Origin: Nitrospinota bacterium
GTDB taxonomy: Bacteria > Nitrospinota_A > UBA7883 > JACRGQ01
Assembly: GCA_016217735.1 (NCBI GenBank)
Contig: JACRGQ010000026.1
Span: 1-33,642, forward strand
DNA: 33,642 nt
Reading direction: 5' to 3'
The stretch's first letter is position 1. Every line of letters begins with the position of its first letter. Below the pieces are notes generated by a model, which worked only from the letters and a program-made list of their open reading frames with translations, searched no databases and was not told the DNA's origin. A program made the translations under genes and the position numbers. Positions 12,598 to 24,321 of this stretch are shown here, piece by piece.

Positions 12598-13402
12598 TGC
12601 CATTTCCGATGATGCGCCGGACGGCGTCCACCACTTCGTCCACGGTGCCGCAGGCATTTTCCGCCGACGGCTCAGGGCGGTCAACGATAACTACATGGCA
12701 TCCCTCGCGCCGCGCCGCCTCGATCTTCTCCGGCACACCGCCCGCATCGCCGCTTTCTTTGGTGACCAGCGTCCCGATGCCGTATTGGCGGATGACCGCT
12801 ATGTTTTCCTCAACCGTAAAGGGGCCGCGCCCCGTGATAACCTCTTCATCGGCCAGCCCCGCCGCCGCGCACGCCGCCGCCGATTCGGGATGCGGCAGCA
12901 CCCGCGCAACAAGCCGGATGCCGCTTTTGCTCCGCTCCCGCGCATAGGGGGCGAGGTTGCGCGAGCCGGTGGTGAGCAGCACGGGCTTGCCGAATGAGAA
13001 TGCGGTCACGGCCGCCTCGTCATGGGTTTTTACATAGTGGATACGTTCGTAGTTGTATGCATTCCCGGCGCGGAGGAACGAGATCAGCGGCAAGCCGGTA
13101 TCCTGCGCCACGGCGGCAATCATCCCCTTGGCCTCCCGCGCATAGGGGTGCGTGGCGTCGACGATGACCGTAACCCCCCGCTTCCGCGCAAGCGCTGCCA
13201 TCGCATCTTTCGCCATCCGGCCCATCCGCCGCTCTATCAGCGGATGGTTCCCCACATCCAGCGCGTTGTCGGTGGCGGTGGATACCAGCGTACGCCATCC
13301 GGCGGCGGCCAAGGCCGTCGCCAGCCCGGCCGTTTCACTGGTTCCGCCGAGGAGCAGTATCAAAACCTTTTTCCCTTGTAACCGCGCGGCGTCACCATCC
13401 AC
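12590..13402 (-). CDS. cbiJ: Precorrin-6A / cobalt-precorrin-6A reductase (CbiJ/CobK)
   Basis: This NAD(P)H-dependent enzyme reduces the C18-C19 double bond of (cobalt-)precorrin-6A. The family's N-terminal strand-loop KVLILLLGGTSETAGLA and the motif VIVDATHPYAREAKGM are clear, with ITGRGPFTVEENIAVI and LVTKESGDAGG later. The longest form starts at GTG 13402 (270 residues), overlapping cbiH by 43 bases. A TTG at 13363, overlapping the cbiH stop as TTGA and preceded by AAGGGAAAAAGG, would begin directly at ILLLGGTSE. It fits the four-base overlaps used elsewhere in this operon, so the start is undecided. Confidence 0.93.
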   Translation of the reverse strand: MDGDAARLQGKKVLILLLGGTSETAGLATALAAAGWRTLVSTATDNALDVGNHPLIERRMGRMAKDAMAALARKRGVTVIVDATHPYAREAKGMIAAVAQDTGLPLISFLRAGNAYNYERIHYVKTHDEAAVTAFSFGKPVLLTTGSRNLAPYARERSKSGIRLVARVLPHPESAAACAAAGLADEEVITGRGPFTVEENIAVIRQYGIGTLVTKESGDAGGVPEKIEAARREGCHVVIVDRPEPSAENACGTVDEVVDAVRRIIGNGNG

Positions 13403-14151
13403 GCCCCATCAAAGTAGGTTTCGCTGTTGCCGATAATGATGATGGTCATCATCCCTATCTCCTGTTCAAGAAAATGATCGAGGTTGGAGATGATGATCCT
13501 TTCTTCCCCCTCGTAACCAACACTGGTGCAGATGCCCACGGGGGTGGAGCCGGGGCGGTGCTTGCGGAATATATCGGCCGCCTCGGCCAGTTGTTCCACC
13601 CGTTTTTTGCTTTTTGGATTGTAGAGCGCGGTGACGAAATCGGCCGATGCGGCGGCCTCCAGCCGCTTGCGGATCAGTTCCCACGGCGTCAGCAGATCGC
13701 TGAGGCTGATGTTGGCATAATCGAGCATGAGCGGCGCGCCCAGTTGCGCGGCGGCGGCCATGGCGGCGGAAACGCCGGGGATCACCTCTATCCTCACCTT
13801 GATATTTTCTTCCTTCATCAGTTCCAGGGCCAGCCCCGCCATGCCGTAAATCCCCGCGTCGCCGGATGAAACCAGCGCCACCTTTTTTCCCGCCGCCGCC
13901 TTTTGCAGCGCGGCGCGGCAGCGGTCGGCCTCTTTTGTCATGCCGGAGGAAATGATTTCCTTCCCCGCCGTGAGGTCGCTCACGTTATCGAGGTAGCGGC
14001 TGTAACCAACCACCACGTCACACGAGGCGAGCGCGCGTTCCGCCCGGTGCGTCCGGTCATCGCGCCCGCCGGGGCCTATGCCAATGACGAAGAGCGTTCC
14101 CGCGCTATCGCCACCGTTATTCCCTTGAAGATTCTCTTTCGCAGTATTAAT
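13360..14151 (-). CDS. cbiH: Precorrin-3B / cobalt-factor III C17-methyltransferase (CbiH/CobJ)
   Basis: This SAM-dependent ring-contraction methyltransferase acts at C17. The coding frame contains the SAM-binding loop GIGPGGRDDRT (from 14082), then VVVGYSRYLD, VSSGDAGIYGMAGL, EVIPGVSAAMAAAAQLGAPL and LYNPKSKKR. The first ATG, GTG or TTG in frame is a GTG at 14016, after the SAM loop, so it would remove an essential part. Upstream to the previous in-frame stop there is no ATG, GTG or TTG. A perfect AAGGAGG (14163-14157) lies five bases before ATT at 14151, so I use that start (263 residues); a second ATT is at 14085. The frame is -1 relative to cbiG and overlaps it by 76 bases. A frameshift fusion with CbiG or a sequencing indel are alternatives. 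Confidence 0.85.
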   Translation of the reverse strand: MNTAKENLQGNNGGDSAGTLFVIGIGPGGRDDRTHRAERALASCDVVVGYSRYLDNVSDLTAGKEIISSGMTKEADRCRAALQKAAAGKKVALVSSGDAGIYGMAGLALELMKEENIKVRIEVIPGVSAAMAAAAQLGAPLMLDYANISLSDLLTPWELIRKRLEAAASADFVTALYNPKSKKRVEQLAEAADIFRKHRPGSTPVGICTSVGYEGEERIIISNLDHFLEQEIGMMTIIIIGNSETYFDGAWMVTPRGYKGKRF

Positions 14152-14858
14152 GATGTCCTCCTTCCCGCCAGCAGCGCGGCCGGTTCGGCCACCGCCGGCA
14201 GGTTTACACTTTGTTCCACGAATTCCGATTTTTCAAAATCGAGCGTTGATTCCCGTATTTCATCCGAGGCAATAAAACGCAGCGGCACGCCGAGCGCCCG
14301 CGCCGCCTCCATCAGCCCCGCTTCGTCCGCTTTCACATCCGCCGAGGCGATGCACCGCACCTGCCGCAATGCACAACCCGCATCGGCCAGGGCGGTTTTC
14401 ACCGCATCGATGATCCGCTCGGCTTCCACCCCGCGGCGGCACCCGATGCCGACGATGAGGTTTTTCGCCGCGTCGGTGGAAGTGGAAATCACCGGCTCGG
14501 CGCCGATGGCGTTGGCGACCGCGAATGCCAGTTCGTTAGCGCCCCCCTCGTGCCCGCTTAACAAACTCACCGCCCAACGCCCCCCCACATCCATCTGCAC
14601 CACGGCGGGGTCTTTCATTTTATCCCGCAGATGCGGTGCGATGGCGCGCACCACCGCGCCGGACGGGGCGATGTAAACCAGCCCTTCGTATTCACCAAAG
14701 ATGCGGGCGGTGAGGTCGGCCACGCGCGAGAACCGCTCAGCATTAACCACCCCTTCCACTTTTTCATGGAGAAAATAATCGGCGTCCGCGAACGTTTTGC
14801 GCAGTTCGCCGAAAAGGGCCGCCCCTTCCCGCGACAGGGTGATGAAGGCGATCTTCAC
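14076..14858 (-). CDS. cbiG: Cobalt-precorrin-5A hydrolase (CbiG)
   Basis: CbiG opens the delta-lactone and releases the C20 fragment as acetaldehyde in the anaerobic cobalamin route. The 260-residue protein shows the family segments in order: YIAPSGAVVRAIAPHLRDK, DPAVVQMDVGGRWAVSLLSGHEGGANELA, the C-terminal-domain start LIVGIGCRRGV, and the closing KRIFKGITVAIARE. It starts at GTG 14858, overlapping the cbiF stop by four bases (GTGA). Its last 25 codons overlap the probable start of cbiH. CbiG and CbiH are fused in some bacteria, and this junction looks like a split or slipped version of that. Confidence 0.95.
   Translation of the reverse strand: MKIAFITLSREGAALFGELRKTFADADYFLHEKVEGVVNAERFSRVADLTARIFGEYEGLVYIAPSGAVVRAIAPHLRDKMKDPAVVQMDVGGRWAVSLLSGHEGGANELAFAVANAIGAEPVISTSTDAAKNLIVGIGCRRGVEAERIIDAVKTALADAGCALRQVRCIASADVKADEAGLMEAARALGVPLRFIASDEIRESTLDFEKSEFVEQSVNLPAVAEPAALLAGRRTSLILRKRIFKGITVAIARERSSSLA
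14149..14163 (-). promoter_or_regulatory. Ribosome-binding site and candidate ATT start of cbiH
   Basis: AAGGAGG (14163-14157), five spacer bases, then ATT (14151-14149). It sits inside the cbiG coding region, where the same bases encode an Arg-Arg pair as AGG AGG. ATT is a rare initiator, known from infC in enterobacteria. No standard start codon exists in this frame before the conserved N-terminus. Confidence 0.5.
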
Positions 14859-24112: not shown

Positions 24113-24291
24113 TGGCATTGTTCCTGTTGGGCAGGTCTCCTGACTCGCGGCATACTCATCAGCGCCTTCCCATCCCTATTACCGGGACAGTGGCTTAGTG
24201 CTGGAGCTGCGCCGCATACAGTGGCGGGGGCCGTACCGGCATTTAACCGGGTTTCCCTTTTACAACCGACAATCGGTTACCCAATGTGCCA
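24113..24291 (-). ncRNA. Cobalamin riboswitch upstream of bluB and the cbi operon
   Basis: On the minus strand the AdoCbl-riboswitch blocks occur in order. AAAGGGAA is followed by ACCCGGT, then CCGCCACTGT, CCACTGTCCC, a GGGAAGG element, and the B12 box AGTCAGGAGACCTGCC at 24145-24130. TGGCACATTG (24291-24282) can pair with CAATGCCA (24120-24113) as closing stem P1 with a bulge. It lies 130 bases before bluB in the same orientation, so high cobalamin should reduce expression. A T-rich tract (24089-24074) follows without a strong GC stem. CCTCC near 24055 could instead mask the bluB GGAGG site. Confidence 0.95.
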
Positions 24292-24292
24292 A

Positions 24293-24321
24293 TAGATAAC
24301 ATATGTATCCGTTGATGTAAA
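24293..24321 (-). promoter_or_regulatory. Possible promoter of the cobalamin operon
   Basis: TTTACA (24321-24316; five of six matches to TTGACA) is followed, 17 bases on, by TATCTA (24298-24293), a weak -10. It lies just upstream of the riboswitch P1 strand. If -10 is correct, transcription would start within the first bases of the riboswitch. Confidence 0.35.

Follow-up and report, generated by a model that had tools for sequence, protein, structure and literature searches.

Conserved Shine-Dalgarno sequence and ATT codon within cbiG point to AUU initiation of cbiH in Nitrospinota

Introduction

Switches of start codons to AUU are extremely rare according to a survey of start-codon evolution (PMC5622118), and the described cases of non-standard initiation differ considerably in their context. 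The infC gene, encoding IF3, starts with AUU, AUC, or AUA behind a Shine-Dalgarno (SD) sequence, is evolutionarily conserved in this respect, and is autoregulated by its own product. For Escherichia coli, pcnB was described as the second gene of the chromosome to start with AUU (Binns and Masters 2002, cited in PMC13009471). In Staphylococcus aureus, cvfC1 (AUU) and ccpN (AUA) combine a non-standard start with a strong SD sequence, and for cvfC1 both features were reported to be conserved among staphylococci (PMC13009471). Furthermore, sigR of Streptomyces starts with GTC, which had been missed by annotation and is under IF3 control (PMC5472188).

Here, we describe cbiH of Nitrospinota, which resembles infC in its conserved, non-standard AUN codon with an SD sequence. 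The same pattern is seen in infC of this phylum itself, where ATG is missing in several genomes and ATT, ATC, or ATA is found instead (L119-L140); in the genus of the window, the open frame of infC reaches further upstream. In contrast to infC, cbiH codes for a metabolic enzyme and its start would lie inside another gene. With pcnB, it shares the AUU start of a protein-coding gene, but gene and phylum differ, and no overlap constraint is mentioned for pcnB in the text citing it. The likeness to cvfC1 and ccpN consists of AUU or AUA with a strong SD sequence; however, their starts were shown by ribosome profiling and reporters, whereas that of cbiH is proposed here from sequence comparison, and cvfC1 is the first gene of its operon, while cbiH starts within cbiG. 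The likeness to sigR lies in the non-standard start, which may likewise escape annotation and be subject to IF3; the codon differs, and the role of sigR initiation is to balance SigR against RsrA. In the open-access literature, to which our search was confined, no report of cbiH with an AUU start was found.

The cbiG/cbiH junction

The window, i.e., the whole stretch of 33,642 nucleotides that was analyzed, carries cbiG and cbiH on its minus strand (Table 1). CbiG is complete, since a domain search matched both CbiG_N and CbiG_C to their ends, with the match extending to residue 252 (codon 14105). The CbiH/CobJ model TIGR01466 was matched over its full profile (1-239 of 239) with 319.9 bits, compared to a curated cut-off of 246.35, and dN/dS values of 0.08-0.12 indicate purifying selection on cbiH. 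As TIGR01466 matches the open frame from its residue 47 (codon 14094) onward, translation of cbiH must begin at or before approximately 14094. However, the frame, which opens after a TGA at 14235-14233, contains no ATG, GTG, or TTG before a GTG located beyond the SAM-binding loop. The alignment to the solved CobJ/CbiH chains starts just before the first beta-strand of CbiH, and initiation at this GTG would delete both that strand and the GIGPGG loop; it is therefore too late for a complete enzyme.

Within cbiG, AAGGAGG is followed by ACATC and ATT, and the predicted accessibility of SD sequence and ATT is moderate to good. Approximately 17 flexible residues of CbiH would lie between the AUU and the first beta-strand. 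Thus, the earlier note on this DNA was right about the missing standard start ahead of the SAM loop, about the AAGGAGG five bases before an ATT within cbiG, and about the -1 frame of cbiH relative to cbiG. The corresponding anti-SD sequence at the 16S end, GGATCACCTCCTT, was found in 4 of the relatives; no 16S 3' end was found in the window's own assembly, probably because rRNA is absent from that assembly. We also considered ATTAATACT as a promoter -10 element and rejected it, as this would provide cbiH with no start codon and codon 2 varies. Elsewhere in the window, a cobalamin riboswitch (RF00174, 112 bits) is located at 24113-24299 on the minus strand, upstream of the B12 gene cluster.

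Table 1. Features of the cbiG/cbiH junction, in positions of the window.
Feature	Position	Strand	Basis or remark
cbiG	14076..14858	-	GTG start at 14858, TAG stop 14078-14076; 260 aa
cbiH, as read from AUU	13360..14151	-	263 aa; open frame, TIGR01466 match, and conservation in relatives
ATT, proposed cbiH start codon	14149..14151	-	same in 12/12 element-bearing genomes
Shine-Dalgarno sequence AAGGAGG	14157..14163	-	5 nt before ATT; AAGGAG in 12/12 genomes, final G in 11/12; synonymous constraint in cbiG
cbiG/cbiH overlap, 76 nt	14076..14151	-	cbiH in -1 frame relative to cbiG
GIGPGG SAM-binding loop of CbiH	14065..14082	-	translation; alignment to solved CbiH/CobJ chains 2zvb and 3nut
First standard start (GTG) in cbiH frame	14014..14016	-	too late for complete enzyme

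Conservation across Nitrospinota

The junction was compared among 24 Nitrospinota genomes, 15 of which yielded a strong cbiH match, including 14 from the class of the window. An element of the form AAGGAG(G/A)-AC-NNN-ATT was found at the same cbiG/cbiH place in 12 of these 14 genomes, which represent 8 genera and 3 families. Searched for with 0-1 mismatch, it occurs exactly once in each of the 12 genomes, always at this junction. The overlap shows the same frame relation in all of them, and the TAG of cbiG always ends after exactly 25 nt of the CbiH core. Read in the cbiH frame, the codons AAG, GAG, and ATT are unchanged in 12/12 genomes, as is their spacing, whereas the codon preceding ATT varies (ATC, GTC, AAC, GAC, or AAA) and the CbiH linker varies freely after codon 3. 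None of the other near-cognate codons between the SD sequence and the CbiH core is invariant in the 12 genomes. Of the 12 genomes with the element, 9 likewise have no in-frame ATG, GTG, or TTG upstream of the CbiH domain; the remaining 3 contain extra ATG or TTG codons that are not common to the group. Two genomes, G016 and G022 (L012 and L015), have an extra in-frame ATG 21 nt downstream of ATT, preceded by AAGGAAG. A Cys codon of CbiG permits this ATG, which could be a start there, possibly a second one.

In the window's whole genome, AAGGAGG-N5-7-ATT occurs at 13 sites, and only at cbiH does a long frame (263 codons) follow in which a standard start is missing. Together with the recurrence in 12 genomes, this means that the arrangement at cbiH exceeds chance. 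The 12 genomes are related, and the tree leaves room for one origin of AUU as well as for several. One of the loci, L005 (G018:C318), belongs to a genome placed in another family, yet its cbiG and cbiH are 77% and 82% identical to those of the window, while genomes of other genera from the window's family reach only about 65% and 70%. This closeness may reflect either horizontal transfer or misplacement of the genome.

The comparison also bears on a one-base error in the sequence, a suggestion that the earlier note had raised. Arising in sequencing or assembly, such an error might conceal a normal start or a fused gene. The window does stem from a draft assembly of 76 contigs; however, no homopolymer of 5 or more is found near its junction, and both frame relation and element recur in 12 genomes that span cbiH identities of 63 to 100 percent, including one assembled into 4 contigs (G011). 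This recurrence refutes the suggestion, and the probability that we leave to it is practically negligible.

Constraint on the cbiG codons

The strongest synonymous-constraint window of the whole cbiG gene is GGA AGG AGG ACA TCA TTA, which is precisely the SD/ATT stretch (codon identity 0.88 vs 0.27 expected, z 4.3). A second peak in the cbiG tail, where it overlaps the CbiH core, is as expected from double coding. At the ATT, cbiG uses the Leu codon TTA in 12/12 genomes, although TTA accounts for 4% of Leu codons in these genes. Furthermore, the base following ATT (+4, position 14148 of the window) is A in 12/12 genomes, with cbiG having TTA and never the commoner TTG, so the constraint extends past the start codon itself. 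In a synonymous-codon simulation, the probability of AAGGAG plus ATT given the CbiG peptide was 3e-3 to 6e-6 per genome; the relatedness of the 12 genomes does not permit these values to be multiplied. At the level of sequence, SD sequence and ATT are shown to be conserved beyond the coding needs of CbiG, and the comparison of relatives lends strong support to initiation at the ATT, as one of the options in the earlier note had it.

Frameshifting and re-initiation as alternatives

It is known, e.g., from dnaX, that an SD-like sequence can stimulate frameshifting in bacteria. Programmed -1 frameshifting, another option in the earlier note, could be promoted by the internal AAGGAGG close to where cbiG ends, giving rise to a CbiG-CbiH fusion besides CbiG. 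This would be in line with the -1 relation in all 12 genomes and with both frames being open from before the SD sequence to the TAG of cbiG. However, no conserved slippery heptamer was found in this shared open stretch in the 12 genomes: a single XXXYYYZ heptamer is in phase, in one genome and upstream of the SD sequence, and candidates for slippage in the A site only differ from genome to genome. Slippage directly after the SD sequence would cost CbiG its conserved C-terminal strand. Since the CbiG match reaches 14105 and the CbiH match begins at 14094, a complete fusion would require slippage within a few codons, and these offer no suitable slip site. The constraint described above rests on SD sequence and ATT instead of a slip site, and frameshifting leaves unexplained both the invariant ATT behind a variable codon and the loss of the element exactly where an ATG is present (G014, G012, and L036; see below). 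In genes with programmed -1 frameshifting, the downstream frame would also be expected to have no separate start among relatives; these three, however, have an ATG. We therefore regard programmed frameshifting as very unlikely.

The earlier note had added that some bacteria have the two genes as a fusion. We could not confirm this, as no such fusion was found among the loci read and the literature search yielded nothing usable in its support. A single frame of 543 codons in locus L016 (1462-3090) was considered as a candidate and rejected, since CbiH is joined there to a second tetrapyrrole methylase, which resembles CbiL.

Termination-reinitiation is common in operons, and ribosomes might re-initiate at a non-standard codon near the cbiG stop, either at ATT 14085, which the earlier note had listed as a second candidate, or at ATA 14079, which overlaps TAG as ATAG and thereby resembles the usual ATGA overlap. 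However, the codon at 14085 is ATT in 1 of the 12 genomes and GTT in the other 11, the codon at 14079 is GTA in 2, and the conservation of ATA/GTA at the latter position follows from the TAG stop of cbiG. Moreover, both codons lie inside the stretch formed by the first beta-strand and the GIGPGG loop, so that a start at 14085 would cut into that strand. This makes re-initiation even less probable than frameshifting, and ATT 14085 is not upheld as a start.

An AUU start probably imposed by the overlap

Taken together, cbiH is very likely translated from the AUU at 14151, driven by the perfect SD sequence, and AUU is probably used instead of AUG because the site is double-coding and the Leu of CbiG leaves no room for NTG. 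We infer that ribosomes initiate at this AUU, that they do so more weakly than at AUG, and that coding constraint and not regulation has fixed the codon. According to the proposed mechanism, AAGGAGG would select the AUU five bases downstream; both belong to the 3' end of cbiG, and the product would be a CbiH of 263 residues. When two genes overlap in the -1 frame, the TG of an NTG start opens a TGN codon in the upstream gene, so that cbiG would have to encode Cys or Trp or to stop with TGA at this point. CbiG has a conserved Leu at the SD-proximal place, where TTA following a codon that ends in A yields ATT, presumably the only near-cognate start available there.

Synonymous recoding of cbiG agrees with this rule: a standard start between ATT and the CbiH core is impossible in 10 of the 12 genomes, and the 2 exceptions have a Cys in CbiG. 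Relatives with an ATG serve as natural controls. In G014 and G012, cbiH is present and the element absent; an ATG overlaps the TGA stop of cbiG (ATGA), and CbiG contains the similar peptides TRATLIL and KRTELIL, encoded by different codons. In L036, which groups with the class in the CbiH tree, the long overlap is kept, and an ATG is found two codons upstream of the ATT position. All three follow the TGN rule, with TGA in G014 and G012 and the Cys codon TGC in L036.

While AUU initiation itself may be real, the codon could have been kept for regulation, i.e., for a low, IF3-dependent output of CbiH, and not because of the overlap. In S. aureus, starting with AUU or AUA reduces expression and can depend on conditions (PMC13009471), and IF3 represses non-standard starts (PMC5472188). 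However, the use of ATG for cbiH in G014, G012, and L036 indicates that low output is not required in general, and the overlap rule by itself predicts which codon is possible. As it explains the identity of the codon, regulation need not be invoked, and we consider it a rather improbable reason for the AUU, although clearly less so than the other alternatives.

Discussion

Documented AUU-initiated bacterial genes are few, and cbiH could be traced across eight genera together with ATG-bearing natural controls. AUU starts as such were already known; cbiH is a new and unusually well conserved case, with the overlap constraint as an unusual twist. This constraint, exerted by the coding needs of an overlapping gene, provides a testable reason for a non-standard start, and the proposed cause may be more general than cbiH. 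Arguments seem to us evenly balanced as to whether an upstream protein that forbids every NTG has fixed the start as AUU in much of the class, which would represent a general, predictable route to the gain and retention of non-standard starts.

If this is true, genes with starts forced by an overlap would be truncated or missed by gene callers that accept only ATG, GTG, and TTG. In annotations of Nitrospinota, a phylum that includes marine nitrite oxidisers, cbiH may be shortened or overlooked, with consequences for what is concluded about B12 synthesis in these bacteria.
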